From the NCBI GenBank assembly GCA_902728285.1, contig CACVBU010001312.1, positions 248,001 through 312,000 of the forward strand: a stretch of DNA of 64,000 nucleotides. Direction: 5' to 3'. Positions 5,531-62,653 of the stretch are shown piece by piece. Both the position numbers and the translations under genes were made by a program. Source of the stretch: Clytia hemisphaerica. Taxonomy: Eukaryota > Cnidaria > Hydrozoa > Leptothecata > Clytiidae. The notes below the pieces were generated by a model. The model was not told the DNA's origin, did no database searches, and saw only the letters and a program-made list of their open reading frames with translations. The first letter of the stretch is position 1. Each line of letters begins with the position of its first letter.

Positions 5531-6865
5531 CAACTATGTTTAGGGTAATCCTGTTTTTTCTCTATTTTTCAATTAATTCAGTGACGTGTTTTCACCAGGG
5601 GAATTCGAATGTTCGTATTTCGAATAAAACAGGCAGAAAAACTGTTACTTCTTTAATAAAACAATACCCTCTAATAAAAGTCCCGTGCGAGTTTAAATCG
5701 CAAGCGAAAAGGCTATTATTATATAAGTATCTCGATTTCTTATCAAATTCGGTCAAACTGTAAGACAATCATTTATAGGAAAGGAAAGATCCAGTAGACG
5801 AGGGAAATAAAAAAAGTCAATTTGAGGAAAAGATTTGGTCAGGGACAAAAAACTACCCCGAAAAATTAGTCACTATCTCCGACACTTATCCCCACGTCAC
5901 GTCGATGCTCCCCATCAATCACCATATATCAGCATCAGCAGTGGGCGATGGGTTCGAGGATGCAAGAAGGTATTTCATTATAGCTCATATTTTGGTAACT
6001 AACCTAGCGGTAAATATAAAATTCCAAGTTCGGTATTTTTCATAAAAATTTTTGGTATTCGGGTGAAAATTGAATCAAGCAAACTGGGCAATTTTTTTAG
6101 ACCCGAATCTCGAAAATAATGTTTTAACCCTATTATTATCAGGCTTTTTTGGATTTTGTATTCTCAAGGAGGGGGGGGGGGGTGTTTTCCACCAGCCTTA
6201 CATAACTTTTGATCTAGAAAAGATATGGACTTGAAATTTGGCAGAAATGTTCTCTACCATAATAGGAGTTCATAGAAAAGAATTTGGGTTGATGACGCCA
6301 TCATAAAGGTGATGACGTCATCACAAAGTTTCACAATTATCGCTGACCAATGAAAAAGTACTATTCGATGAAATTGCAATTAAAGTTGAACGAATGGGGA
6401 TTTTTCAATTCTGTTTTGAATTTCTAAAAGCCAAAAAGAATATCTTTAACATATTTGCCGGTTTTTAACATACTAATAAAATTGAGGTTTAAAATCCATG
6501 CAGAAAATGAGTAAATATTTTCAAAAGACAATGACGTCATTTTTGTTGACGTCAGCAGTTTTTGAAAATTTTTAAAATATTTTTTAAAATTTATTATTGA
6601 TACCTAAAACCTGTCAAAATTTGAAGTCAGTTGAATGCCTACATCAAAAGTTATGCTAAATTTAAGATTTTAGAATTTTACAGTGTTTTGGCTGGATTTA
6701 ATGATATGCCTGCACAAAAAAGTCATAAAACCTGATCTGGCCGGTGTATTATTGTAAAATTTGGTATAAATGCTGCTAATAGAATTATAATAAAAGTCAA
6801 AAACTTTCAGAGTGCTAAAAAAATTTTTCAGTGAGCTATTAGCAAAAGAGTGCCGCGTCTGTATC
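5531..6865. other. Non-coding; GACGTCAT-containing repeat text
   Basis: No supportable gene. A 14-base G run lies near 6170. From 6230 to 6720 the sequence carries GATGACGTCATCA and TTTGACATCAAATTT-like phrases. Similar text appears inside the foldback at 33989-34674 and the MITE at 63024-63844. This suggests a diverged copy of such an element without a clear second end. Confidence 0.45.
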
Positions 6866-17358: not shown

Positions 17359-20300
17359 CTAAGTATACGAAGACAAAAAGTATAACTTAAGAAAGTCCTT
17401 AAGACGATCCAATGCAAGTGTGGAGTTGTCATCAAATGTCAAGAAATCTTGAATTTCATTCCAAGCAAGAATTGATTGGTATAAAACTGAGTAATTGCCA
17501 TAAGTCACTGTATTTACTTCGGGTATTTTTAAAAGTCCGGACTTAGAACGGATAACTTCATGACGATCAGTATCATTTAATCGCTTATACTCGAGACTTT
17601 GCAATAAAGGAGTAGGAAGTTTGTTTTTTAAGTGCTTGAAAAGAAAGATAATATTTAGATATTTGACAAAATCGAAAAAGCGAAGAATCTTGAAATCTAA
17701 AAATAAAGGAGATGAATGTGCACGAAAGTCAGAGAAAGTCATAATCCGAAGAGCTCGTTTTTGAAGAATGTGGACCCTGCGAGCATAGATTGTCTGTCGT
17801 TGACCCCATATTTGGGCTGCGTAAGAAAGATGACATTGAAAAATAGAATGATATAATGATGTTAATGTTTTCTTGTCGACATAATGCCGGAGTTTACTGA
17901 GAGCTCCATTAGCTCTCTTTAATTTATTACAAACAAAGTTTATATGGTGTTTCCAGTTCAAATGTTCATCCAGATATACACCCAATACTTGACAACTTTG
18001 CTTGGTATGAGTTTGCGTCCATTGACTTTGATTTTTAAGTCATAGTTGATCTTCTTTCGAATCGGACGAAAGATCATAAGTTCAGTCTTACCAACGTTTA
18101 ACGAGATCTTGTTCGCCTTCAGCCAGTTCATGAGAAGCTTAAGGTCGATATTTGCTCGTTTAGCTATAGGTTTTAAAGATTCATCTCTCAGAAAGAGCAT
18201 AGTATCATCAGCAAACAGATTGACAAGAGAATATCGAAGAGCAGTATGAAGATCGTTCACATAAAGAAGGAAAAGAAGGGGCCAAGAACAGAACCCTGGG
18301 GGACACCATGTTGCATGCGTCTAGATGTAGAATTTTTACCTGAAACTGAAACAAACTGTGATCTGTCAGTTAGAAAAGAACGAAACCAGTCAAGAGATTT
18401 TCCCCGAATGCCATAGAAATCTAGTTTAGCGAGTAAGATGGAATGGTCGACAGTGTCAAAAGCTTTTTGCAGATCAATAAAGATGGAACAACCGAAATCA
18501 CCTTCATCCAAGGCACTTGAGATTTGGTTAACACAGTAAAGAAGGGCTGTCTCAGTAGAATGTCCAGAGCGAAAACCGAATTGTAAAGAATAGATGGAAT
18601 TTGTCTGATCAAGAAAATTTATCAGTCGTTTGTGCATAAGTTTTTGAAAAATTTTGTCGATGTTTGAAAGAAGTGAAATGGGTCTGTAATTTTCAGCATC
18701 AAAAGGAGATCCTTTGTTTTTGAAGACCGGAATGACTTTCGCTTCTTTAAGTTGACTTGGAAAAACACCAGTAAAAAAAGAAAGATTGATGATGTCAGTG
18801 AAGATCGAAGAAAGACTATTTAGGTTAGAAGAAATAATACGATAAGGGATGCTATTGGGACCAGAAGCTTTGTTCTCACTTAAGGACATTAAAACTTTAG
18901 AGAGTTCGAGTTTGGAGACTGGCGAGATGAGAAAGTTGTTAGGATTTCGACGTTCATTTGATAGCCATTCAGAAAAGTGATGACGTGTGAAAGGGTTTTT
19001 TGATCGTATCTTACCAGCAATCGTTGAGAAGAAATCATTGAAGCCTTCTGAGACTTCTTGAGGACATGAAGAAAGAGAGTCATTGATGTTGAGAGAAATA
19101 CTAGACCTAGAATTTGAAGAAGATATGACTTCCCGGACACCTTGCCAAAGTTTACGAAGGTTATTAAAGTTTAAAGAATAATGAAGTTTTTTACTTGCAC
19201 GAATGAGTGAAACTATTCGATTACGATAAAATTTAAACCTACCTCGAAGGAAAGATTTGAGATCCTTTGCAGAATCAGGAACGCTCAGATAGTCATTTTT
19301 GAGATTATCCCTGATTTTCATTGAGGTACGAATGCCACTCGTAACCCAAGGTTTCAGCAGGAGATCAGCTTGACGCCTAGTAAGTTGTTTCAAAGGGACA
19401 TGCTTATCATACAATGAAGAGAAATGGGTTTGAAAAGTGTTAAAAGATGAGTCTACATTCCCCTTGTCGATTTCAAGAAGATTTTCCCAATCAAAACTGT
19501 CAAATTCTTCCTTGAAGCTGGCTTCATCAAAGTTAGACCATTCTCGACGAAAAGGAAGTTCAGGCTTAAATTCGGGACCGCAGTCTGTGTTTAGAACCAA
19601 AAACTGAGGAAGATGATCGGAAATAGCAACAGTAAGATTTCCAGAGACTGAAGTACAGTTGACAGGAGAGGTAAAGATATTATCAATGAGAGTGCTCGAA
19701 GTGTCAGTAATTCTTGTTGGCAAGGTGATTGTTGGTAGGATTTGGTAGGCACCGAGATTGTCGAGAAACGCAGAGTGAGAAAGGTCAGTGTCACAAGTTA
19801 AAAGATCGATGTTGAAATCACCTAATAAGATAAGATTTTTATTTTCTTGGCAGGCTTTCTTCAACAAAGGAGATAAAATTTTATTAAAAAGATCAACATC
19901 AAGAAGAGGATGTTTGTAGATACAACCAACGATGAAGTTTTTTCGATTCTTCAAAACAATCTCAGCAAAGGTGGATTCAAGATTGCCGCTGTTAGAATTA
20001 ATAAAATTTTGAAGATCCTCACGAGGTTTGCCTTTAAGAGATTTAGAAATAAAAAGGGCAGTACCCCCAGCAGTGGAGACTGCTGGAGTATCAAAAGTAT
20101 TGAAGCCGCTGATGGAAAGTTCGGTATCTTCAATTTTAGAATGGAGCCTTGTCTCAGTGATACCGAGAATACTGAAATTATGATTAAGATCAGAAAGTAA
20201 AGTTGTAAGATTGTCATGGTGTTTTTCCAAAGAACAGATATTTAGATGGAAAGCAGAAAAAGATTTTTTCTTAAGAGGCAGAGAAGAAAATTCTTGAGTA

Positions 20301-20680
20301 CTATAATATTTGCAATTAAAGTGAGATACATGATCATCATAAGTTATATCGTCTTCTTGATCGTCGACTTGAGAATCAAAGTTAGAAACATGATTAGATT
20401 TTGAGTTGAGATGTTTAAAATAGGATTTTAGATGACTTATGTCTTTGCCAATAGGTAGTTTATCCTCAGTTTCAAAATTAGGTAAAGCGTCTTGCCTGCA
20501 TAGTTTACAGAGCCAGATGTTTTTTACAAATTTTGGTTCAACGCCGAGGCACTTTGCATGGGATCGTCCCTCACATTTTGGACAAAAATGAAAAATTTGA
20601 GTGGTTCTAGAGATTTTTTTTAGGCAAACAGTGCACTTCGCACTTTGCATGCTTGAAGAATTGTTAATCTTGTGTCTCAA
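17359..20680 (-). pseudogene. LINE ORF2: PHD finger, EEP endonuclease, reverse transcriptase; two frameshifts
   Basis: Residues about 16-61 form a PHD-like Cys/His cluster (CTVC, FHFCPKC, SHAKC, WLCKLC). EEP endonuclease motifs follow (HLNICSLEKHHDNL, GITETRL, LLGDFNIDLL, SDHLPQF). The RT comes next: VIPVFKNKGSP, YRPISLLSNIDKIFQKL, FGFRSGHSTETAL, FIDLQKAFDTVDH, HGVPQGSVLGP and LFADDTMLF with the catalytic Asp pair. Frame is lost by one base just after VLGP (near 18265) and again near 17985 (KVVKY then GVYLDEHLNWKHH). The thumb and C-terminal part continue to 17359. Apart from these two indels it is complete, so it may be recently dead, or the indels may be assembly errors. Confidence 0.85.
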
Positions 20681-20794
20681 AGTTCAAAGGGATATGTTTC
20701 CCGAGCCAAAACTAGTGTCATATAATATCAATAAGAGAATACTCTATCACAATAGAAAGAAATGCGTAACAAAAATCAGGGAATTATCTACTTT

Positions 20795-21739
20795 TTAAGA
20801 ATAGAAAATGTCTTTATAATCAGGAAAAGATTCAATCAAGTCATTCAGATGTGTTACTTTCATTACTTCATTGTTATTGTCAGCAAAACGCACGTTAATT
20901 GTCCCATTAAAGACCCAAAACGACTCAATTGCATTCTTATTATAGAGTGATTTCACTTTTCCCCAAAGATATCGATAATAACTGCAAAGGTTATTGTTAA
21001 TATACAACGTGTTAGAAAGATTCACTTTTGACAAAACTTCTCTCTTTTTTGAATTCCTTTCCTTTTTTGATGAATTTTCTGCAAATTTTCTGTTTACGAA
21101 TCTGACAATAGTACGTTTTGGTCCGTTTTGATTTTTGTTTTGAGTGAGTCGATGACAGGCTTCAATATCCTGTGAAGAGATTGTAATGTCAACAGCTTTA
21201 GCGACTTCAATAACTTTTGCCTCTAGATCCTGTTGTTTAACGTAATCAGGGATACCAGCTATTTCAATGTTATTTCGTCTTGTATATTGTTGAAGCTCAG
21301 CAGATTCCCTTTCAAGTTGTATCATGTCGTCATTTTTACATAAGTCACTTGAGATATTTTTCAATTCAGATTTGAGATCATCAATAATCAAGGACTTTGA
21401 ATCTAAATCTTGCCTCAAAGTGTCAATTTCTGCTTTCATAGCTAGGTTTTCGTTTTGAAGTTTAATGATGATCTCATCCTTAGTATCTTTGATCTTTTCA
21501 GCAATGTCATGTTTTATAATTCTCATCTCATAATAAATCATTTCCAAAGTTATCTCTCGTGTGGGATCCAAATCAAAAAAAGACTTAGAGGTAGAATAAT
21601 ATACTTCCCCATCAACAACTGATGTATCTCCTTCCTTTGGTGGTGGATCTTGAGTCTGCAGTTGGGTGGGATAATCATCAGGAATCTCAGCAATAATATC
21701 AGCAAGGTCATTCTTTTGCTTTCTTGTTGTGATAGACAT
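20795..21739 (-). CDS. LINE ORF1 protein, coiled coil plus nucleic-acid-binding domain
   Basis: An intact 314-residue ORF. Residues about 75-140 form a heptad-rich, charged coiled coil (RIIKHDIAEKIKDTKDEI, then IDTLRQDLDSKSLIIDDLKS). It is followed by YTRRNNIEIAGIP and ACHRLTQNKNQNGPKRTIVRF, the landmark motifs of L1-type ORF1 (Transposase_22) RRM and C-terminal domains. Such proteins bind LINE RNA as oligomers and act as chaperones in the retrotransposition particle. The stop lies 114 bases before the ORF2 start. No frameshift is seen, in contrast to ORF2. Confidence 0.8.
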   Translation of the reverse strand: MSITTRKQKNDLADIIAEIPDDYPTQLQTQDPPPKEGDTSVVDGEVYYSTSKSFFDLDPTREITLEMIYYEMRIIKHDIAEKIKDTKDEIIIKLQNENLAMKAEIDTLRQDLDSKSLIIDDLKSELKNISSDLCKNDDMIQLERESAELQQYTRRNNIEIAGIPDYVKQQDLEAKVIEVAKAVDITISSQDIEACHRLTQNKNQNGPKRTIVRFVNRKFAENSSKKERNSKKREVLSKVNLSNTLYINNNLCSYYRYLWGKVKSLYNKNAIESFWVFNGTINVRFADNNNEVMKVTHLNDLIESFPDYKDIFYS

Positions 21740-21971
21740 ATTAAAATCAAAATTTGGCTCGAGAAACTAGGTGTGTTGTGTTTTAAGCAACAAAAATTTT
21801 GACACGTCTGTACTCCGCGGATGTCAAAGCGAGGTCTGAATCAGTCGAGATAGATCATCAGGAGAGATAGATCATCATTTCACTTCCAGCGCAGCGTGCG
21901 CAAAGCTTTCATCTCATGTAGATCATTTTCTTTTGGTTATTCACGTGGGTCTGTCACAAACAAGACAAGAG

Positions 21972-34674: not shown

Positions 34675-37600
34675 AAGAACAGGAAGATGATAACCCATTG
34701 GACAATTTCCGAATTCCCGCTTCTGAAACAGTGTTCGTACCAGAGTTGCCGCACCAGATTGTTGACGACTCAAATGTCACTGTAGCTCCAGGGGAAAACA
34801 AGGAACCGTTGCCCATAATTTGTGATAAAGATTGCGAAATACTTGCCCACCCACATTTGTTTCCTACCTGTAAATTTTGATATACGCACGAAAGGGAAGA
34901 AAAATTAACACCTTGCAGATATTTTAATCAGAGATTACTAAACTATTCTCAAAAGTTTTCATCTGATAGTGATTACATCTTTTATGCACAATCTTTAATG
35001 CAACACTTGAATTTGAACAGTAGCATTAATACAGCACTGAAAAAGATTCAAACAGAAGGATTGACCGCTGGCCGTTTATCACAAAATTTTAAAGAAACAA
35101 TAACTAATTTAATTGCTAACGATAATGCGTATAGTTTTATGAATAATTTGAAAGGTACTCCGGCATACTGGAAAAGATTCCTCTATGAAGTTCTCGCAAT
35201 GGTAAAACAACTAGGATTGCCAACATTTTTTATGACGTTGTCTTGCGCCGACTTAAAATGGCCAGAATTAGTTGAAATTATTCAAAAAATAAAAGGAGTG
35301 GACATGAACGAAGATCAAATAAGTAATTTGAGCTATATGGAAAGAACAGAAATACTGCAATCCAATCCTGTTGTATTAGCAAGACACTTTCAATATCGTC
35401 TAGAATGTTTCTTTAAACATATCATTGCCAAAGGAGCACTGGGAGGAAAACTAAAACATCACGCTTCAAGGATAGAATTTCAGGCTCGAGGTAGTGCTCA
35501 TTCTCACTGTCTTCTTTGGATCGAAAATGCTCCCATTTTAACATACCAGACTATCAATGAATATGTAAAATTTATTGATGGAGTTATTAAATGTGACCTG
35601 CCAGAGGATAAGAATAGCAAACTCTATGAATTAGTCATAACATATCAAACACATCGTCATACAAAGTCGTGTCAGAAATATAAAAATCAAACTTGCAGAT
35701 ACCATTTCGGTAGATTTTTCACTGAAAGAACGATAGTTGCCTTGCCCTTAGAGGAAAATTTACCAAATAGAGATGAAATCTTGAATACGAGAAAAAGTAT
35801 TCTTGCCCCAGTGAAAGAATACATTGATAAAAATTTTGATCCAAGGCATAATAATGTACTTGATCCATCAAAAGATAATTATAAAGAACCAAAATCTATT
35901 GACGAAATTCTCAGAGAATTAGGAATTTCAAAAGAGAGTTATTACGAGCAACTTGCAATTTCAACAGACAGAAGTTTCCAAATACATTTTAAACGCTCAC
36001 CAGCAGCATGTTTTATAAACAACTATTTCGAAGAAGGGTTGCTTGCATGGGAAGCAAATATAGATATCCAGCCCGTCCTGGATTATCACCGAGCAGTGTC
36101 CTACATGTGTGCTTACATTTCGAAATCCGAAGACGAATCAACAGAAGCAATGAAGCAAGCAGCAAAAGTAGCTCTAGAAAACAACGTATCTTTAAGAGAA
36201 AAAATGAAAGCCATTTCAAGAGCATATCGAACGCATAGGGAAATGTCAATCCAAGAAGCTGTTTCTATTATCCTTCCAGAGATTTGGTTACGAAAAACAT
36301 CTCCAGCTGTTATTTTTGCGAACAGTAATCTACCCGACAACCGGTATCGTGTTTGCAAAACCCAAGAAGAAATTTCAATTATGGATGAGAACGACACAAA
36401 TGTTTTCAAGAGAAATATGTTGGATCGATATTTGGATAGGCCGAATGCAAGTTTTAAGAACGGCAGATATAGTGCAATGGATCGGTTATGTTATGCACAA
36501 TTTTTAGCAAATTACTCTTTAGACTCAAAAAACAAAGAAGAAGAAAATGATTATCAACCAGAAATTTTGGAAGAGTTAGATGCATCTGAAGTAGCGGACT
36601 TGAGCTTACCAAAATCAGTTCCACTAATGTCAAGTAAGGAGCGGTTGAAATTGCGAAAAACTAGGTGCGTTTTGAGATACCATGTACCAAGTAGAGAGAA
36701 AAAGCCAGAGCACTATGCACATCATTTGCTATTCATGTTCTACCCATTCAGAAATGAAGAAGAACTAAAAGCTATCCCCTCTGGAACATACATGGAAAGA
36801 TTATCATCACCCGAGGTTTTAGAGATCATTAATAGAAATAAAGCCATTTTTGAACCTTTTGCCGATGTCGTAGATGAAGCCATGATGAACTTCAACGAAA
36901 ATGCCAGAGGGTATGACATTTACGGCGAACAAGAAAACGATATGGTTAGAGAAGAAGAAAATAATGAAAATGGCGAGGGATCAGACGAAGAAGAAGGAAA
37001 TGAAAACAATTACCGTGGGGGCACTTCCTTACAAACAATCGAGCCGTTGATATCAGATGACGAATTAAGTTTGAGAATTCGATCACTCAATGTGAAGCAG
37101 AGAGAAATTTTTGACTTTATTGTACAATGGAGCAGAAAATTATCCCAAAATTTGAGAACTAATAGAGTTCAAAGACAGACACCTTTTCATATATTTTTGA
37201 CAGGTAGCGCGGGTTGCGGAAAATCATACACTCTAAATACCATCAAGTTTTATCTCCAGAAGGCTTTGACGTACGGAACAAAAAATGCATCTAAAGAAAG
37301 ATTGCTAATTGTGGCACCGACTGGTATAGCAGCAGTTAATGTATCTGGTTCAACCCTAAATTCGGTTTTTAGTATCCCACCTAATCACGAATACTCTAAA
37401 CATATCCCCCGACTCCATGATCAACCTAGGTCAAATCTCAGGGAACGGCTATCAGAATTGAAAGTTATAATCATTGATGAAATCTCAATGGTCTCAAAAT
37501 ATCGTTTACTCCATATTCATCAACGACTTTGTGATATCTTTGGCTGCGGTGAAGATATCCCATTTGCAGGTATTTCAATCATAGCCTGTGGGGATTTCTA

Positions 37601-37712
37601 TCAATTGCCTCCGATTAAAGGTGGTACAATATTTTCCCGATTTTCAGAGGATTTGCTGAACATTGATCTTTGCTGGAGGAACTTCAAAATTGTTGAGCTT
37701 GGACTGAGGTGA
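34675..37712 (+). pseudogene. Helentron Rep/helicase: Helitron-like N, HUH endonuclease, PIF1 helicase N-terminal half
   Basis: A single frame broken only by TGA at 34878-34880, where the family has Gly (KFG in PTGKFGY). The uninterrupted part (34998-37712) is 904 residues. It has the Helitron-like N domain (KGTPAYWKRFLYEVLAMV, PTFFMTLSCADLKWPEL), the HUH motif QARGSAHSHCLLW (His168 and His170), and the catalytic tyrosine pair in AVSYMCAYISK (Tyr369 and Tyr373). An acidic linker (residues about 640-680) precedes a PIF1-type helicase: GSAGCGKS (about 737), APTGIAAVNVSGSTLNSVF, VIIIDEISMVSK (about 824) and ACGDFYQLPPI. Both catalytic sites look intact. It stops at 37712, where the frame shifts. 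Confidence 0.9.
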
Positions 37713-38480
37713 TGAGACAAAGGGGCGATCAAAGGTTCATTGATATTTTAAACAATATCAGAATAGGGGTCATCCGAGACAATGACATGGAAGTTCTTGC
37801 TCAGAGAACCATCACTGAAGACCCACCCTAATTATCCAAAGGAAGCAATTCATTTATGGGCTGAAAATAAGCCAGTACATGCTCATAACAACAAAAAGAA
37901 ACTAGATGAGCTTCCTGGTGAAGAGTTCGAAGTAGTTTTCATCAGAAAGTTTCCAAGAAATATAAGCAATGCCGATATATAAATGACGTGTACAAAAGGG
38001 GGCAATGCAAACAGGAGGCTTAGGCTTAGCGAACAAATTTATTTTCAAATATGGCGCTAGAGTTATGCTAACATCAAATATCGATGTCGAAGATAAACTT
38101 TGCAATGGTCAGATTGGAGTAGTCGAACATATAAAGTTTGACGATCGTGGAAACGTAAAATGCATATACTTGAAAATGGAAAGTGACGAGATTGGTTTGA
38201 AAGCGAAAGGTAATGATAACTATGGTCGATCTAATAACCTTGTTCCTATAGAAAAAATAGAAAAAGAGTTTTTGGTGTTAGGACTACTAGACCTTTTCCC
38301 ACTGCACTGTAAAACGCATCCATTTCCACTAATGCTTTCATGGGCATGCACCGTTCATAAAGTACAGGAGGAAAACATTTTCTCAAATCGTTTTTGATGT
38401 TACTTTACACGGGCAAAGAAGTTTTAAGCCAGGTCAAGTTTATGTTGCTTTGAGTCGTGTTACTTCATTGCAAGGTCTGT
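37713..38480 (+). pseudogene. Helentron helicase C-terminal half, four frameshifts
   Basis: Continues with VMRQRGDQRFIDILNNIRIG, then NYPKEAIHLWAENKPVHAHN, then YGARVMLTSNIDVEDKLCNG and LSWACTVHKVQ, then GQVYVALSRVTSLQGLYL. These are the 2A/2B and motif V-VI regions of PIF1 helicases (LMSW-x-x-TVHK-x-QG, YVALSRV), spread over three frames with changes near 37705, 37805, 37985 and 38375. The pattern is of small indels rather than large deletions. Confidence 0.85.
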
Positions 38481-39235
38481 ATTTGATGGGAAATTTTAAT
38501 AAAAAAATCATAAAATGTGACGAGAAGGCCTCCGAGGAATACAACTACTTGAGAGAAAACCTATCATTTCAAACTGAAAATAGCGATGAAACAAATGCAA
38601 ATGACATCATTATAACTCTCCTAAATGTTCGATCTTTGAGAAAACATTCTATAGATATAAGAGCTGACAAAATACTCACAGAGAGTTGTTTAATTTGTAT
38701 GACAGAAACTCAACTAGCGGACCACTCTCACTGTAATGAAATAGAAAATGTACTGGAAATGTTTTCCCTAAATTATAATAATGAAGCAAATCACCCTTAT
38801 TCTAATACAGCTATTGCTTATAAAGAACAAATAGAAATATTGGAAACTTATAATATACCTGGAGCGTCACGATTTACGATCAAGCATTGTAGAATAAATT
38901 TTCCTTTGAAAATTATTCTTCTATACCGCCAACAGAATCTTAACAATGAAAACTTTTTATATATAATCCACCACTTACAAGGAACTGTCGACAAAGCTCA
39001 TATCATCCTTGGAGACTTTAACAAGAACTTTTTTACTGAAGAAAGTAACTTCCTGAAAACTTACTTACTACAAGATTATGAAATGATTGTTCATGAAGGA
39101 ACACACATTTCTGGTTCGTTAATTGATCATGTTTATGTTCATAATGACTTTAAGACATCATTCAATATTAGTACTAATATTCACAGTATATATTATTCAG
39201 ATCACGATGCAATAAAAATCAAAATCTCTATCTAA
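38481..39235 (+). CDS. Helentron C-terminal EEP (apurinic-type) endonuclease domain
   Basis: In frame with YVALSRV upstream. Motifs in order: TLLNVRSLRKHSIDIRAD, CLICMTETQL (catalytic Glu), IILLYRQQN, AHIILGDFNKN (Asp-x-Asn), SLIDHVYV and YYSDHDAIKI (Asp-His). These are the landmarks of the endonuclease/exonuclease/phosphatase fold, as in non-LTR retrotransposons and Helentrons. The frame is open to TAA at 39235 without lesions. The domain is thought to have been acquired from a non-LTR element; its role in rolling-circle transposition is not established. Confidence 0.85.
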
Positions 39236-45850: not shown

Positions 45851-46943
45851 ATGGTGTTTTCAGCGGAGGATAAGGCGATCATAAAAAATGATTTCTTGGA
45901 AAAGAATTGGAATGCAAACCGTATATGCACAGAACATCCTACAAAGAAATGGGATAGATCATCTGTTTACAGACTGTTGCAAAGATTTAAAGAAAGCGGA
46001 ATCGATGGAAAGAAAATCTGGCTCCGGTAGACAAAGGACAGCGTGCACAGAAGAAAATGAAGACCTTGTGGAAGAGCTAATCTGTTCCCAAGAGGAAAAC
46101 CCTGGAAGCCACATGTCCCCACGTGAGATTCAAAAGCATACAGGCATCAGTAGAACATCGGTCAGAAGAATGGTCCGCCGTAAAGGTTTAAGGCAGTTCA
46201 AACGCTTGAAGACACCCATGATGAGTTCCGGTACGAAAGAAAGGAGAACAACAAGGGCAGGGGAATTAGCTGAAAGATTCGGAAAGAACCGTATGGTAGA
46301 AAAGTGCGTATTTCAAGACGAGAAAGATTTCACGCTCGACATCCCGATCAACCATCAAAATAGCCCAGTTTATGGACCGCAAACAAAATCTGAAATATCT
46401 GCCGACCGCTTGTTCCACATTCAAAATCGTCAATCGAAAAAGGTAATGGTTTCAGCTTGTGTGTCCTGGAAAGGCACGACCAAGCCTCACTTTGTTAATG
46501 ACAACGGATTGAAGGTAAATGGTCAATCGTATAAGAAGCATCTCGACAAGGAATTGATTCCTGAGATTCAACAAATCATGCAAAACAACAGATGGATTTT
46601 TCTCCAAGATAGTGCACCTTCACATCGATCCACAATCGTGCAAGATTTATTGAAAGAAAGATTGAACAAACGTTTTGTGAAAAACACTGAATGGCCTCCA
46701 TCTTCCCCAGATTGTAATCCCCTTGATTACCATTTTTGGAATAAGGTTAAGGATCTGGTATATGAAGATAGATTTGGCCAGCCTTTCAAAGACATTGCAG
46801 AATTAAAGCGTAAAATTAGAAAGGTCAGGCCAAAAGCAGCGAAAGATACGACTGGAATTCGCAAGGCTCTCAAACAGTTTATTCCCAGATTAAATGCAGT
46901 AGCAGAAAACGGTGGAAACTGCATCAAAATGATTTTTGGATAG
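45851..46943 (+). pseudogene. Tc1/mariner-superfamily transposase, one frameshift
   Basis: Starts at ATG 45851 (MVFSAEDKAIIKNDFLEKNW). Helix-turn-helix regions follow (KKWDRSSVYRLLQRFKESG, then MSPREIQKHTGISRTSVRRM), with a GRQRTA linker. The catalytic region has VFQDEKDFTLD (first Asp), FLQDSAPSHRS (second Asp) and WPPSSPDCNPLDYHFW. From the second Asp there are about 33 residues to the Asp of SPD and about 38 to the Asp of LDY, closer to the maT/DD37D type than to classic DD34E. A one-base frameshift near 46000 separates the first helix-turn-helix from the rest. Otherwise the protein is complete to 46943. Confidence 0.85.
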
Positions 46944-52375: not shown

Positions 52376-52565
52376 TAGGGGATGACATAGAAATCCGTCA
52401 ATGTAAAACTAGTGATCTAAAATGACTATAAGGAAGAAAGCAATTCAATATGAGTTAAGATGGAAAGAAGTAACTCAATATGAGTCAAAAAAGATATTTC
52501 AAGAAAACACATAATCTGTTCCACAGGATTTCGGCCTCTTACCAGTACCGCACTTTGCGTCGATC

Positions 52566-52655
52566 GATTGATGCCAACCCGATCGAGTGATGTCACTCAA
52601 TCGGGTGATATTTTAGTAACCCGATTGATGGTACAATCACTTGATTGGGTTGTCG
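52566..52655. repeat. Left subterminal repeats of the 6.5 kb element
   Basis: CCCGATCGAGTGA-TG-TCACTCAATCGGG is a near-perfect palindrome, followed by further CCCGATTGA and TCACTTGATTGGG copies. They are probable transposase-binding sites, mirrored near the right end (ATCACTCGATCGG, GTGATAATCACC, ATCACTCGATTG). Confidence 0.7.
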
Positions 52656-53111
52656 AAAAAAAATAAAAACTTTTGTGGAGGCGCGAAAACAAGTGTGATA
52701 GCTGGAATTTCTTCCAGCAAACGAAGCACCTTAAAATTAACCAAATTACCGTGCATAATAAAATTTTACCGCGTACTTTTTTAACTATGTCAATGTGAGT
52801 GAGTATGGCTGACGAACCAATGAGAAAACGAGGAGAACAGTCAACTTTTTCTTTTCCCTTTTTGAATTTCTTTTTCCTCCAACATTCCTTATCGAACAGG
52901 TGCGAACTTTTGGTAGTTGCAATATCAAAATCCTTATTTCTGTGCGTTCTGCAGTTCTGGCTCGTAACAAATTATTCTCTTTATATGAATGACCATTATT
53001 TTTTGTTAGAATAAAGAAAAAAAACAAATAAATTATACAAGAACAATATTTCTTTTTATTGACTATATTTAGGCTCTGCTGAAAGTTGTATGAGATAAAA
53101 TTGCAGAAGTT

Positions 53112-55209
53112 ATGGAAGATAATCTGACAAATAATCTCATCTTTACTGCTCAACAACTAAAGGATTTTGGGATTCAGTTTGATGAGACTCAAGATTCTTT
53201 TGAGATAAATTTGCCGGGGATGAATTTGTTGAATTTATCTCAACTTGACGAATCAGCTCCCGTCATAACAAATCACATCATTCCTGAGAGGCAGGAAAGT
53301 GAATTAACTCAATCGCTTTCAGAATCAGAGGAATCAGCACCTTCTGTCGACGAAACAATATCAACCAATATCCATGATGAAACACTAGCAACTAACAATG
53401 AGGAGCTTCAATGTAAATTAGTGAACACCACCAAAGAGAGCACCCCACCCGACGATAGTATGATCTTGTGTGAAACCGAGCCTGTTAGGCACTATTTGGA
53501 TTACGGTGGAAACGAAGAGGTTGACTTTGCAAGTTCGGACCAAACAAATCAAGGTAACACTAAGCAAAAGTTTTATTGTAGTTTACACATAAAATATAAG
53601 CAAAGCATTATACAAATACCATAACGATTGTGAAATTAAATACTAAACTAAAAATAGCTGAAAATGTTTTAAGGATTTTTAAATATTTTATTACTATACT
53701 AATCAAGATGCTTTTATTCTTAGACAGCAGAAGAGACCCCATCACACTGGCCCGATGGTAGCAAAATTCATGACTGACAACCACGGTCGGCAAAAATGCT
53801 TTTATGAGAGAAAAAATACAATACTAAATAAAAAGTGTAAGGATCTTGATAATATTGTTTAGCTGCTTCGTTCATTTTCTTTATCGTCAAAATCATTGTA
53901 CACTTCCTCAATCTGCTCGGCTATCGAAAGAAAGTGTTCAATGTAATCATCTTTTTTCTTTCTTTTAACAGTTTTATCAAAAATTTCATATTGGAGTTTA
54001 GCAGTGTCCTTGTCAAAAGTTTCAATCATTCTGTAAATCAAAATTTTAATTTCGTCTTTAGTTTTATTTTGAAGGGAGCAATACTCCTCTTCGTCTTTTT
54101 GCGTAACAAATACTGGTGTTAACTTTAAACTCGCCCCATCAATCTTAGCTGTTATATATTCTTTTGTGTTGTTTACGGCGATAGATGGAAGCTTTATCAA
54201 ATCCTCTGATAAAGTGTTTTTTGCGTCAATACTTTTATGATCACTCGTTTCCAATGGGTTCAAAAGATATTTCATCTTTCGAATAAAACTTCTTACTTTC
54301 ATGATTTGCACATCGTTTTTCTTTTTATACGTTTCATACTCACGGTTCTCGTCGTCTCGTTCTTTAACATTAATCACCTCTCGTTTCAGCTGGAATGAAA
54401 AAACAATTCATTGGTTAAAATGATAGAATTATTTTCCTATTTACAGGCAGAGTACCTTCACGTTGCAACCGGAGCATACGTTTATCTGATCATCAAACCA
54501 ATCGACTCAAACGCTAAGTATGTTTACGATAGCTCGAAAACAACATATCGCAATTGTGGAATTCAGTTCGGAGTACCAGCACCTGATCTTCAACGTCCGT
54601 CTTCGACAAGAGGAAAAACAAACACTCCTTTGAAAGAAACAAGGAAAAGAAAGTTCAAAATTTCAGAAATACCGAAGTTAAATGTGAATAGTCTTCCAAA
54701 ATCCAAGCCAAAGAAATCGAGGACATCTTCGAAGGAACTGAATGAGAAGAATAATGGGAGCAAAGGCTGCAAATAAGGATAATAAGTCTTTAGATAAAAA
54801 CAAAGGAACACCAAGCATAAAACCGAAATCAAAAATAGTTTCAAAGAAATCAGCTTCAAAAACAAAGCAAACAACAGCTTCTACAACAAAGCAAACAACC
54901 GCGTCCACAACAAAACAAACAACAGCTTCCACAACAAAGCAAACAACAGCTCCCACAACAAAACAAACAACTGCGTCCACAACAAAGCAAACAACAGCTT
55001 CCACAACAAAGCGCTTGGTACGTTCTGCAATTTGTAATAATTGTGCTGGAGTCTCAGGTGGTGAATGCGTGTATGATTCTCCAGAAGATATAAAGTTTAG
55101 AGCTTCAAAAGGTGAAAGAGCATCTTGGATCGGTTGCGATTTCAAACAACGCATATTGGGGCCACGCTTGTTGTGTGGGAGTTTTGATAAAACCCAGGGT
55201 ACCGATTGA
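53112..55209 (+). CDS. Plus-strand gene of the 6.5 kb element: acidic N terminus, octapeptide repeats, PHD-like end
   Basis: Exon 1 is 53112-53553 (147 codons, acidic, Ser/Glu/Thr-rich, begins MEDNLTNNLIFTAQQLKDFG). The donor is AAG|GTAACA. Exon 2 starts at 54451, the second AG of a tandem CAGGCAG acceptor, which keeps phase 1 and gives EYLHVATGAYVYLIIKPID. The frame then needs a one-base shift near 54745 to continue into a Lys/Ser-rich region. Next come about six TTASTTKQ octapeptides (54875-55010) and a Cys-containing end (ICNNCAG, SWIGCDF, LLC) that resembles a degraded PHD finger. The ORF stops at 55209. No overall family is recognised. Its intron contains the third exon of the opposite-strand gene. 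Confidence 0.5.
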
Positions 55210-57682
55210 AGACCACGTCTTTCTTTGCCCAAAGCACAGACCAAAGTAAAAACATTACATTTTTAAAACTCTTTTGTTATTAAAGTTACGTAGTCATAAT
55301 AGTTTATTTTAGTAAAGGACCAACATTAAAAATCAAAAGTTATTTATATCAACCTACCTCTGTGAGTTCATCTATGTTTCTAAAATCTTTAATCCATTGG
55401 TCGTTAGTTGGTACTCCGGACATTTTAAGCCAAGATTTGCTCTCTTTATTAAGCTCTTCTAGCATGGCATCGCCACCTTGACACTTTCCAAGAGTCCTTG
55501 TTCTCGAACCAGATACAAATTTGTTCATAATTTCCTGTAGTTTGGCTGGCATTAGTATTTTATCACGACCGTGTTGGAATAAAATATTTTGATAAATTGG
55601 ATGGTTTCTTGCAAAAAAGACGTGCGATGAGTGTAGCATTACATTTCCGGACACCTGACATGTAAACGGGACATGTAAACGGGGTCAAAATTATTATTCT
55701 CATCCTTTTATTATAGAATCTCTGACAGTTAAGCCCCCATATCACTTTAACCCTAATTATTTTCTTATTCAAAACAAGTGTGTAAATCAAATCCATGATG
55801 AATAAGACTTAAATTGTACATGAAAAGGGATTTTTTTACCTGCCCTCAGCATCATCAAGCTGTGAATGTAGCTGAACACTGATTCTTGCAAGTATAAGTA
55901 ATTTGGATCTTTGACTTTTTCTGACCAGTCCCAATAACCATCAACTGAAGGAGTCTCTTTTTCAACAATGCAATATCGTACATAAGGAACCATCAACTCC
56001 ATTCCAAGACTAAGGTATAATATCTCGAGGAAATGCCAAAGTTTATGATGACTTGCACCTTTATAAAGATAAGCTTGAGCTTTAGGGGACTTAAATCCCA
56101 ATACAGATCCTAAACTACTTGTAAAAACATCCCAGTTCAGCTTGGTGAACGCTCGAGCGGCATTCATTTCAAGATGGAGTAAACCAAATACTGGCAAAAG
56201 TCAACCAAACTCGCGGCTTCCCTCAACTTTCTCTAACACGTAACATTTATGATCTTCAGAGTTAGATTTTTCATAATAACAATCTGAACACTCTGGACAA
56301 CGGTAAACTTTTTCTATGATATCTCGGATAATGTTGTATGGTAAACCATCGCATTCCACCTTTAACCATTCTCTATTACCTGTCCCATACTGCTTTACGC
56401 CAGCTCTCGTACCGATAGCTTGAATTATCTGAATAATGCTATCCTAGCTGCACGGATTCAAAAAATCGGGTTCACCAGCTTTACAAGAGATTTTTGGTAA
56501 AGATGTTTGATGGTGTGAAAAAGAACCGTAAGGGTTTATCTCGTCTGGTTCTCCTTTTTGAGAATGAGATTGATGTAGTGGTAATTCAATTTCGCCAATG
56601 TCTCGTTCCACTTGTACATCTATCTCATCTTTAGAAGATTTGTTGTGCTCTTTAACAACCTTAGTTAAGCATACACGTATATGAGCGTCTCTTGTCTCGC
56701 AAAAGTTTTTTTTTGAGGAAGACAGATATTCCTCTAACTCACCGGAGACTTTTCCATCTACTTCGTCCCTCATCCAACCAAGTGGCTTCAATGTCAAGTC
56801 TTCTTGCAAATTACTATCGGGATCAAGAGTTACCCAGAGATGACTGGTGATGACACTCGTTTTAACTATATTCGTTTCTGAAATCAGATGTGTTTTCCCG
56901 ATCTTTTGGTTGTTGTCGAACACTGATTTCGCCAGTCCTACTGGGAATGTTAATGCTTCAATTCCTTGTTCTCTTAGCCAATTGTTTACGTAAGTATAAG
57001 ATCCTCCTGGGCATCTATTTCCAAGGAAACTCAATTGAGATTTGCAGTTGGTAAAAGTGTAACATAATAGATTTTCCAAGAAGTGATTTGGTAATACCTT
57101 CTTGGAATTCATACTGTAATATAAAAGCTCTACAACTTTGGAAAGTATGATGATTTTTGCCCTACCTGCGGTGTTTAAGTCAATACCACTTAGACTGCAT
57201 AAAAAATGTAGCAAGGGTTCTGGTCTTTCTCTAAACCAATTCAAATGATCAAAGTTTTTAAGCTCGGTGACAGATACAACATTACCTATTTTCTTCATAT
57301 CCGAGACAATTTGTTTTTTTAACTCTCCTCCTAGCTCAATACATTTTGATATCAACTCTTCATCAACATTTGAATGCTCAGTTTCAACGGTTTCAACATT
57401 GTCGTGCTCCTACACGGTATTGTCACGATTTTGAATGACGATATTCAAACAAACCCCACATATGTTTTTGGTGTCATAGTAAATTATCCCTTTAGAGAGC
57501 AATGTCTTATAGTCAGCACTTTTAATTCTAGATCTCTTTTGGAGATCAAACAAACTGGACTGTTCAATAATTGCAGAGTTGTCATGTATTTTTGATCCAC
57601 ACACAGCCCTATATCTACCCGTATTCTCATCTCGCTCTTGTTCATTTTCATTTATTCTCTTGCTTTTTCGTTTTCTATTCAT
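53859..57682 (-). pseudogene. DUF6589-like putative transposase of the 6.5 kb element, three exons, three stops
   Basis: Exon 1 (57682-55840) is one frame of 614 codons with three stops: TAG 57410-57412, TAG 56444-56446, TGA 56201-56203. It has an N-terminal YRAVCGSKI and ICGVC pair, then RERPEPLLHFL, NRCPGGSYTYVNNWL, SVFDNNQKIGKTH, VECDGLPYNIIRDII, a zinc-finger-like CPECSDC-N11-HKC, and FGLLHLEMNAARAFTKLNWD. Exon 2 (55654-55358) has FARNHPIYQNI, PAKLQEIMNKFV and ELNKESKSWL. Exon 3 (54389-53859) encodes a charged helical tail and joins exon 2 in phase 0. The exon 1-2 phase is off by one. The HLEMN and CDGLPY blocks match the DUF6589-type family by memory. No other ORF in the element looks like a transposase. 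Confidence 0.65.
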
Positions 57683-57788
57683 CTATGATATGAGAAATTT
57701 AAAGTGATTTCAATACTTTTATATCTAGAATGCTAGCGTTATTACCAAAAAATTAGGAGCCTGAATTGTAAAGGTAGGAAAAATAGTA

Positions 57789-58136
57789 AGGACCCTGCCG
57801 ACGCACCGGACTGTCCGGAGTATTTGTCCGGTGGCAAAAAGTATTCTTTCGCTACACCGGACGCAATAAGTCCGGTGTCAGTCCGGTGTTGCATACAGGG
57901 AATTTTGGACGCCGGACATTTATGAAACAAAAAATTAAGAAACACCGGACGCACCGGACTGGTCATGTCTCCGGTGTTTTGATTGTCCTGTGGGAAAAAA
58001 TATCTTTCTCCGACACCGGACATCCGACTTCCTTAAGTCAGGTGTAGAAATTGTCCGGTGGTAAAAAAAATTCTCATTTTACACAGGACTTTTGCGTGTC
58101 CGGTGTTCGTTAAGTCCGGTGCGTCGGCAGGGTCCT
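57789..58136. mobile_element. hAT-type MITE copy 2, 348 bp, 8 bp TSD AAATAGTA
   Basis: AAATAGTA lies at 57781-57788 and 58137-58144. The TIRs and interior match copy 1 (49129-49475) in inverted orientation with few differences. It sits inside the 6.5 kb element, just upstream of the start of the minus-strand gene, so it may affect that promoter. Confidence 0.95.
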
Positions 58137-58575
58137 AAATAGTATCTTTATTACGAGTCTTAGCATGATTTTGATTTTAGTAATACTTTAAAAACTGAAC
58201 GATCTTTAAAATGCTTATCCGTTTTTGAAGAAATATAATATCATAATGTCATACATATATATAACCATATATATAATCCTAGAAAGGAAAATCCTGTACA
58301 AGAAATGAATACAAGAAACAAAAAGAAAGTTAAAAAGGTTGAAAATACTAGATGCACTCAACTACAGGTCCTTCCAAGCTCTTGCTATTTAATGCCATCT
58401 GAAGTGTTTCAATCACTTTATCATATCAAGAATCAAATGTTTTTAAAACGAACTTGCATGGAACTACAGCACCTCCACCTTCTCTGTCATTTTTTTGCTT
58501 TGGATTTTTTCTAAATGATTGGCGATGATCAACGTGCTTACTCGAGCAAGCATTCCCAACAGCAATACAGCTTAT

Positions 58576-58884
58576 TTAGGTAATCTTTGCTTCATTCAAA
58601 AAGTTCGAAAAAATTCTGCATAAGTTGGCTGGCACATGTCCGACCATTTTCCCATCAGGCAGTTTCACACTAAGAGCAAACCTATCATACTTGTTATTAA
58701 GATCCCTTTCAACCACCATGACCATTCCAGTGTCGGGTTTAATCTTGTAGATATGATATCCCTTGATAACAGATTTGTTGATGATGATATCCTTCATAAT
58801 TATTTGCACTTCAACTTGAAAAGTATCCCTTCTTTTACTATCTATAATCAATACCTCAATATTTGTCCTGAATGAATGAATCAC
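58576..58884 (-). CDS. HIRAN-domain protein of the 6.5 kb element
   Basis: 102 residues. From residue 36 it reads KSVIKGYHIYKIKPDTG, then VVERDLNNKYDRFALSVK and GKMVGHVPANLCRIFSNFL. This is the HIRAN signature (RE-x-x-N-x-YD-x-x-A-hhh, GhVP). HIRAN domains bind 3' DNA ends or recognise damaged or forked DNA, as in HLTF and SNF2-linked proteins. The family's usual segment after NFL is missing, so further exons may be lost or lie elsewhere. It is transcribed from the right end inward, on the same strand as the DUF6589-like gene. Confidence 0.7.
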   Translation of the reverse strand: MIHSFRTNIEVLIIDSKRRDTFQVEVQIIMKDIIINKSVIKGYHIYKIKPDTGMVMVVERDLNNKYDRFALSVKLPDGKMVGHVPANLCRIFSNFLNEAKIT

Positions 58885-59012
58885 CCGATGGCCGTATGAT
58901 CACTCGATCGGTCGCGTCCTTTTTGTCCGGAGGTCGACTTTCTCTAATCAGGTGATAATCACCCGAATGACGGTACAATCACTCGATTGACGCAAAGTGC
59001 GGTACTGCTTAC

Positions 59013-61125: not shown

Positions 61126-62653
61126 ATGGTCACATGGAGCTGTGGTTCTGCACTATGTTGTAATACATACCAGACAAAAACTGAGGGACTTACCAAATAT
61201 CGACTACCTAGGAAGAATCAGTGTAGAGAGTCTATGCGAAAGTTTTCAAAACATCTGGATGGAACTGGGAGAATGGTTTCATTTGCTCTGCACATTGGAA
61301 GGATGGTAAACGTTTATCATCATCGCACTTACCAGAAATAATTGTTCCACCAAAACAAATGGATTTGATTAGGGTAAAATTTGAACGTGCTGAAAAACTT
61401 TATAGATCTTTAAAAACACCAAATGAAAAAATCTCCAATCAATACAAGCAAGCTAAGTTGAGATTAACAACAGCCATATCTGCCAACTCACAACCACCAC
61501 CACCAATCGCTACCCCTCGAAGAAAGCTGATTCGTAAGCCATCTATGAGCCTTAAAGAAAAAACCCCATCATCACCATCCAAAGCAGAATATCGTAAACA
61601 ATGCTTTACTCTTACAGAACAGTTGAAGCAAGCCCAAGAAAAAATATCGAAACTTGAGACAGAACTTGTCAAAAAATAAAACCTCCTGAAAGAAGAAAGA
61701 AAAAAAACATTAAAAATTTATCAACTATTTACGACCTACAAGCTACTGAAATAAATTATGAAACTCTTACGTTAACACAGCCAAATGAAAAAGCTATTGA
61801 ATATTTATGCGGTATCGATCTTGAAAAATTTAACTTGATTTTCGATTGCATCCAACCTTACACACACCTTATACCTTATCCTGACAATCGCAAAGTAACT
61901 AAATTTTCCCTTGAGACTCAACTCCTTGTCACCTTAACAATTTGTCGTCACGGAATGGATAAAAAATTAATGGCTTTTATTCTTAATTCTTCTCCTTCAA
62001 CTGTAAGCAGAATATTCAATGCCTGGGTTATATTTCTCTCAACTGTTTTCAACAGAGTCGATTTGACGCCAACTCATGGGTTTTTGTTAAAAATGATGCC
62101 TGAAGCTTTTGTCAAAACAGGACATGGTACTACAGATTTGATTATTGATGCAACAGAATTTAAGTTTCAAGCAGCCTCAAATTATGAACTTAGCAGCTTA
62201 ATGTTTTCCAATTATAAAAACACGACAACAGGCAAGGTTTTGGTTGGAATTGCTCCACACGGTATGGGTTTAATTTTCAGTGATGTTTATCCAGGCTCAA
62301 TCTCAGATTCATCAATTACTGAGAAAACAGGGATTTTGCAATTTGTTGAAGAGGGTCATGAGGTTATGAGTGACAAAGGATTTGCCATTCAAGACTTATG
62401 TTCTATCAAAGGAATTTATTTAAATCGACCGAAACAAAAAGAAAACGACCAATTTGAACAGTCAGATATTAAATCTAATTTTGACATTGCTTCAACTAGA
62501 ATCCATGTCGAAAGATTTATTGGGCGTGTTCGTGATTGGACTATTTTGAATAATACTTGGCCTTTAACGAAAATGGATATACTTTGCCCAACTTGGCAAA
62601 CACTTTGCCATGTTGTGAATTTGACTTTGCCCCCTATTGGTCCAAAGGAGTAG
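61126..62653 (+). pseudogene. THAP-domain plus DDE_4 transposase (Harbinger/ISL2EU-like), frameshifted
   Basis: The N-terminal region from about 61126 has a THAP-like zinc finger: WSCGSALCCNTY, YRLPRKNQCRESMRKF, then in a shifted frame FICSAHWKDGKRLSSSHLPE and IIVPPKQ (the Cys-Cys-Cys-His spacing fits). A coiled-coil linker follows (61359-61676). Then comes a DDE_4 (HARBI1-type) domain: ETQLLVTLTICRHG, PSTVSRIFNAW, LIIDATEFKFQ (Asp), FSDVYPGSISDSSI (Asp), EVMSDKGFAIQDL and IHVERFIGRVRDW (Glu). Lesions: a frameshift in the THAP part near 61265, TAA at 61677 and a frameshift in an A run near 61705. The catalytic domain (61835-62653) is intact. Confidence 0.8.

Follow-up and report, generated by a model that had tools for sequence, protein, structure and literature searches.

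A decayed multi-gene DNA transposon of Clytia hemisphaerica with a predicted DUF6589-like DDE transposase, probably of a new superfamily

A 64,000-nt stretch of Clytia hemisphaerica DNA (contig CACVBU010001312.1, positions 248,001 to 312,000; hereafter the window, to which the coordinates below refer) contains a transposon that is very likely a decayed copy of an autonomous cut-and-paste element, matched to no described superfamily and composed of a DUF6589-like DDE transposase gene and two helper genes. It shows the hallmarks of a cut-and-paste DDE transposon, namely terminal inverted repeats (TIRs), a 5-bp target duplication with an empty site, and a predicted RNase-H fold with D, D and E. 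This reading assigns a likely function, that of a transposase, to a family for which Pfam gives none, and adds a probable extra DDE superfamily. It also supplies an independent case of a transposase gene convergent with the gene of a PHD-type protein, an arrangement reminiscent of the RAG1-RAG2 transposon of vertebrate antibody-gene recombination, and makes testable both why the RAG transposon had a chromatin-reading partner and where the RAG1 N-terminal domain came from. Genome searches were made in the 417-Mb assembly of the species (951 contigs); labels consisting of C, L or P and a number denote a contig of that assembly, a fetched locus and a related protein, respectively. The features of the element, with the exon limits of all genes taken from splice signals, are as follows.

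52538..52542, left target site duplication CTTAC
52543..59007, transposon, with CAGTACCGCACTTTGCGTC at both ends in inverted orientation
52543..52572, plus strand, left TIR
52614..52647, plus strand, left subterminal repeat
53112..53553, plus strand, MADS/PHD gene exon 1, donor CAAG^GTAACA; the C700 family has its first exon at the equivalent position
53724..53836, plus strand, MADS/PHD gene exon 2, first half of the MADS box; 3' limit approximate, as the splice site looks damaged
53859..54389, minus strand, last exon of the transposase gene, acceptor TTCCAG^CTG
54447..55249, plus strand, MADS/PHD gene exon 3, second half of the MADS box, octapeptide array and PHD-like Cys/His cluster
54851..55012, plus strand, 24-bp tandem repeat, 6.8 copies, encoding a Thr/Lys-rich octapeptide
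55358..55654, minus strand, transposase exon 2, with the proposed catalytic Glu (codon 55457-55459) in GGDAMLEE
55840..57682, minus strand, transposase exon 1, N-terminal Cys cluster, proposed catalytic residues and three in-frame stops
57781..57788, left copy of the 8-bp duplication AAATAGTA; right copy at 58137-58144
57789..58136, nested miniature inverted-repeat transposable element (MITE), 348 bp, with its own inverted repeats
58346..58797, minus strand, HIRAN gene, upstream of the transposase gene on the same strand; lower limit approximate, by eye
58978..59007, minus strand, right TIR
59008..59012, right target site duplication CTTAC

The inverted repeat is perfect over its first 19 bp and 93% identical over 30 nt. 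With up to three mismatches allowed, CAGTACCGCACTTTGCGTC occurs in the window at exactly two sites, 52543-52561 (plus strand) and 58989-59007 (minus strand), and it was matched in none of 100 shuffles of the window. The left subterminal repeat has a direct copy at 58956-58989 (34 nt, 85%). An earlier note on this DNA had proposed a once-mobile unit of 6.5 kb with TIRs identical over 19 bp, a perfect CTTAC duplication and subterminal repeats; ends, duplication, repeats and span all stand, but not the implied original size. The 348-bp MITE is nested in the element, and the original transposon was therefore about 6.1 kb long. At L009, L011, L021 and L022, which represent three other copies of the transposon (L009 and L022 being one and the same copy), AAATAGTA is present once and without insert. 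The 8-bp length of this duplication suggests that the nested MITE is hAT-like.

For the empty-site search, the window flanks were joined with a single CTTAC into a 300-nt query with the junction at 150, and because 40 of 356 candidates were scored, the count is a lower bound. The joined flanks have at least 41 matches at 88-90% identity, every one of which extends across the junction; 40 of the 41 cover at least 277 nt, and the remaining one covers 130-287. Four fetched sites are uninterrupted, with TTTAC (three) or TTTGT (one) in place of CTTAC-element-CTTAC, and the alignment shows a 16-bp gap and smaller differences, all away from the junction. Given that the flanks match many uninterrupted sites, the target was a dispersed repeat in which insertion duplicated 5 bp, and the single 5-bp copy at all four fetched sites bears out the proposal of a once-mobile unit.

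Assembly-wide, with up to two mismatches, the TIR has nine matches (none for a control pattern), whose positions are the ends of copies of this family, and no MITE-like amplification is seen. Besides the window copy, only L011 on contig C613 keeps both ends, with CTTGT on either side. Thus, a target duplication of fixed length is found in two copies, CTTAC in the window and CTTGT on C613, with empty sites for the former. L010 is a truncated copy whose left flank is identical to that of L011, indicating a local duplication. The C781 copy (L009/L022) has lost its right end and the C69 copy (L021) its left; about 763 bp of the left end remain on C158 (L012), element positions 43-537 and 6091-6383 remain on C430 around an internal deletion (L013), the C672 copy (L014) runs into N, and C342 holds a fragment of about 1.2 kb. 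Mismatches to the window copy amount to 2.1-3.4% in the aligned parts of six loci. The search for further copies that the earlier note had recommended thus recovered elements with common ends and 5-bp duplications, while ends without the genes between them, which it had named as a counter-case, were encountered only as decayed copies (C430 and C158). The possibility that an artefact of assembly or annotation placed unrelated inverted repeats around unrelated exons has nothing in its favour beyond the decayed state of the window copy. It is already refuted by the internal sequence shared with the copies on C613, C781 and C69, by the empty sites and by the nine TIR matches, and we give it virtually no chance of being correct.

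In exon 1 of the transposase gene, the in-frame stops lie at 57410-57412, 56444-56446 and 56201-56203, and the proposed codons are Asp 56915-56917, Asp 56348-56350 and His 56174-56176. The exons at 55654-55358 and 54389-53859 bear splice signals and enclose an intron at 54390-55357; the first exon junction is out of frame in the window copy, of which decay could be the source. The exon 1 piece scores 13.3 bits against DUF6589 (PF20231; cut-off 27), whereas the relatives P0010 and P0012 are above the curated cut-off with 36.6 and 31.7 bits, and 24 of 40 members match PF20231 at E 0.1. The Pfam entry describes DUF6589 as a "family of unknown function". The predicted fold points to one. In VIA-align structural comparison the P element was the best match for both predicted models, and RAG1 and HzTransib are among the folds matched. 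Foldseek against the PDB returned nothing significant for either model (Hermes ranked second for the first; RAG1 chains ranked second, third and fifth for the second), and it is therefore from the VIA-align comparison that the transposase fold is concluded. By its predicted fold the DUF6589-like protein is an RNase-H DDE transposase, with D, D and E assigned from models and conservation and a presumed catalytic role. The earlier note had listed it as cargo; on this evidence it would be the transposase itself. The Glu in LLHLEMN was rejected as the catalytic residue, because this position is N in P0043 and the Glu falls in GGDxLLE by the fold. A scan of IMG/VR yielded 45 stretches that fit a pattern and no relatives. 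The 10-kb locus fetched on contig C794 shows neither a HIRAN nor a PHD match and holds an intact single-exon DUF6589-type gene of 882 amino acids (L062:3645-6290), which may be a one-gene element or a transposase that has been domesticated.

The MADS/PHD gene is convergent with the transposase gene. Its exon 3, with frameshifts near 54760 and 55160, sits within the transposase intron and the last transposase exon sits within an intron of the MADS/PHD gene, and the two genes therefore interleave on opposite strands. Against the Pfam MADS box (SRF-TF, cut-off 26), the joined window exons reach E 1.7e-4 and 21.4 bits, under the cut-off, and the C700 counterpart, of which the exons read total about 310 amino acids, reaches E 3.6e-7 and 30.0 bits, over it. 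The best solved relative of this counterpart is SRF (E 2.6e-4). Its PHD-type matches fall under the cut-off (E 0.0046 and 0.013), and at the end of the C380 copy, too, there is a PHD-like Cys/His cluster, whose PHD match (E 0.0052) is likewise under the cut-off. The corresponding stretch of the window family, taken from copies free of the window frameshift, has no Pfam match at E 1; it is called PHD-like from where it lies in the gene and how its Cys and His residues are spaced. No kelch match was found in this partner protein. The PHD-like cluster and octapeptide array announced earlier are thus retained, to which is added a MADS box that had been missed.

The HIRAN gene matches Pfam HIRAN at E 3.5e-7 (30.4 bits, cut-off 24.7). 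In the window copy it has a frameshift near 58430 and an in-frame stop at 58576-58578 that is not in other copies; the window copy's own genes are broken. The assembly contains 47 Pfam HIRAN matches, of which by eye just three, all of the window family, adjoin a listed DUF6589 match, and the HIRAN of C700 is outside this list, its frame reaching only E 0.19 in Pfam. Most HIRAN matches lie away from listed DUF6589 matches (for example C256:1650770, C256:1782582 and C832:1478688) and some have equal scores, so HIRAN may be carried by other mobile elements as well.

The same three-gene arrangement recurs in other families. Places and expectation in what follows are lower bounds, as the list of 71 DUF6589 matches comes from 61 of 383 candidates. 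The C700 element, 8,973 bp in the copy seen, has TIRs that begin CAGTCTG, a right end 92% identical over 78 nt to the left end of a C456 copy, and flanks CCGTA and CCGAA that are equal at four of five bases; HIRAN and transposase genes share a strand and the MADS/PHD gene is convergent. The search that led to it used the reference relative P0002, with which its transposase shares 36% identity. Transposases of the C380/C33 family are 39-47% identical to P0002, with HIRAN upstream and PHD downstream on the opposite strand; the probable 5' end is CAGTACGGGAATC, and a 3' end on C40 differs from it by 1 base in 19. An element of this family on contig C380 (L033 and L066) is split by copia-like retrotransposon frames, by eye. 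The C69:128886 family has HIRAN upstream. HIRAN was detected at E 1e-3 in 11 of 30 loci fetched around DUF6589 matches, some of which overlap and two of which are the window's own copy; its absence from the others says little, because usually only about 1.5 kb of flank was included. When the C700 PHD exon was searched against the genome, its own locus and six others were found, and three of the six have a listed DUF6589 match in convergent orientation no more than 5 kb away (expected 0.008), the remaining three being on contigs without a listed DUF6589 match.

These recurrences bear on the alternative that the element captured its DUF6589-like and helper genes from the host and that the true transposase is encoded by an autonomous element with matching ends that has escaped notice. 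The broken state of the window copy, the size of the HIRAN family in this genome, and the existence of several DUF6589 genes with long open frames, including that on C794 with no helper gene found nearby, could all be accommodated by capture. However, the same genes in the same order and orientation accompany these divergent transposases in families with different CAGT-type ends, the DUF6589 fold is predicted to be that of a transposase, and all nine TIR matches in the assembly belong to the window family, making capture highly improbable.

It is somewhat unlikely, but possible, that the element is a divergent branch of one of the known superfamilies whose transposases have a helical insertion (P, hAT, Kolobok or CMC/Transib), to which the helper genes were a late addition. 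According to PMC9587614, PMC10045372 and PMC12730594, Repbase lists 20 DDE superfamilies, or 23-24 overall. The P superfamily is favoured as the best structural match in both models, but this fold is common to other superfamilies, and the window element departs from it in its CAGT ends, its two helper genes and its 5-bp duplication, compared with 8 bp for the P element. No Pfam match to THAP was found in the window frames or among the families shown for 40 relatives, a miss that does not exclude a THAP domain. Elements of the hAT superfamily have CAG ends. Unlike hAT (Hermes), no hAT family is among those shown for the 40 members, and the C/DxxH signature of hAT, P, MuDR, Kolobok and Dada reads GxxH in the DUF6589 group (H in 27 of 28, G in 26 of 27). 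PMC9587614 gives TTAA as the duplication of Kolobok and 5'-RR..YY-3' as its termini, with 3-5 bp at KolobokP solo ends, and reports that some Kolobok lineages gained zinc fingers and extra genes. Kolobok and KolobokP thus resemble the DUF6589 group in having zinc-binding Cys clusters between catalytic residues and, in some lineages, extra genes, but the window element has CTTAC and 5'-CA..TG-3', and the Kolobok zinc finger between the second D and the E follows C/DxxH, whereas the Cys cluster of the DUF6589 group precedes the His.

The 5-bp duplications described for Transib in PMC8355894 agree with those seen here. The C(2)C plus H(3-4)H that Transib and RAG (CMCT) have between the second D and the E is not conserved in the DUF6589 group: by eye, a C(2)C lies 17 amino acids past the second D and hardly varies within A1, but P0043 lacks it, and no H(3-4)H stands at one common place in P0004, P0014, P0043 and C700, P0043 having HTMSH alone. 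Transib ends are of another type than the CAGT.. ends of the window element. For the 40 members compared with Pfam at E 0.1, the 25 families shown out of 26 matched include no transposase family, and a profile search of PDB sequences at E 10 gave 15 matches, none of them a transposase; LIM kinase and ribosomal zinc-ribbon proteins are among them, and the best has E 0.041. Searches confined to an open-access library listed no DUF6589, HIRAN or MADS/PHD transposon. The element could be matched to no described superfamily, lacking defining features of P, Kolobok, the C/DxxH group and CMC/Transib though it would work as they do, and probably represents a new one, with Repbase outside the comparison. 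The earlier note's placement of a multi-gene DNA transposon outside the named superfamilies is sustained by the copies with common ends, 5-bp duplications and empty sites.

Similarities to the RAG system extend beyond the 5-bp duplications. As in RAG1-RAG2 (ProtoRAG/RAGL), a transposase gene is convergent with a PHD-type partner gene, although the RAG2-like combination of kelch and PHD is replaced here by a MADS box and a PHD-like part. Two amphioxus proteins combine a DUF6589 core with the N-terminal Pfam domain of RAG1, against which P0014 scores 41.9 bits and P0042 scores 44.2 bits (cut-off 23.3); P0042 is 29% identical to P0002 over 597 columns. A protein search with the amphioxus RAG1-like N-terminus found these two only (2 of 28 candidates) and was insensitive, because RAG1 itself was not recovered. 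Comparison by hhalign of the N-terminal Cys module of eight members with the two amphioxus N-termini returned a probability of 0.5%, and therefore no homology is claimed. In the Clytia assembly the RAG1 N-terminal domain has 17 matches, in frames of up to 703 amino acids (for example C394:399097, C824:45748 and C435:737943), none of which is near a listed DUF6589 match by eye, the sole common contig being C456 at a distance of about 88 kb; perhaps these are other RAG-related or Chapaev-like elements. No likeness to the Transib/RAG1 core was seen in Pfam or PDB sequence searches, and the resemblance is in predicted fold only. The RAG link therefore consists of the amphioxus domain fusion and likeness of layout, with no evidence of common core descent beyond the shared fold. 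PMC8355894 describes Aplysia N-RAG-TP as a transposon with a RAG1 N-terminal-like sequence, a feature shared with the two amphioxus DUF6589 proteins. It is tempting, if rather doubtful, to suppose that DUF6589 elements form a new superfamily parallel to RAG of which N-RAG-TP, the thought source of the RAG1 N-terminus, may be a member, RAG1 then being a hybrid of a Transib core and the N-terminus of a DUF6589 element.

Under our preferred reading, an autonomous transposon with its own DUF6589-like transposase, the enzyme would resemble those of the P element, hAT and Transib, and RAG1, in that a helical insertion separates its second Asp from the Glu. This transposase would recognize the element via the subterminal repeats, pair the CAGT..ACTG ends, excise them, presumably by DDE catalysis, and join them to the target with a 5-bp stagger, which would account for the 5-bp duplications. 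MADS domains bind DNA and PHD domains bind histone tails, and the MADS/PHD-like protein of the convergent gene may steer or regulate the complex through both, by analogy with the role of RAG2 for RAG1. HIRAN binds 3' DNA ends, and the small HIRAN protein may hold exposed 3' ends during excision or repair. The suggestion of the earlier note that HIRAN and PHD-like proteins may act as DNA-end or target accessories is plausible.

Other frames in the window also have the look of mobile elements, by eye. At 17359-21766 are non-long terminal repeat retrotransposon frames with endonuclease and reverse transcriptase, and at 34881-39235 are long frames like Helitron-type Rep/helicase with endonuclease-like frames downstream. 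A 352-amino-acid frame at 45885-46943 resembles a Tc1/mariner-type transposase, and two frames at 61227-62653 resemble a THAP-containing protein and a Harbinger/ISL2EU-like transposase.

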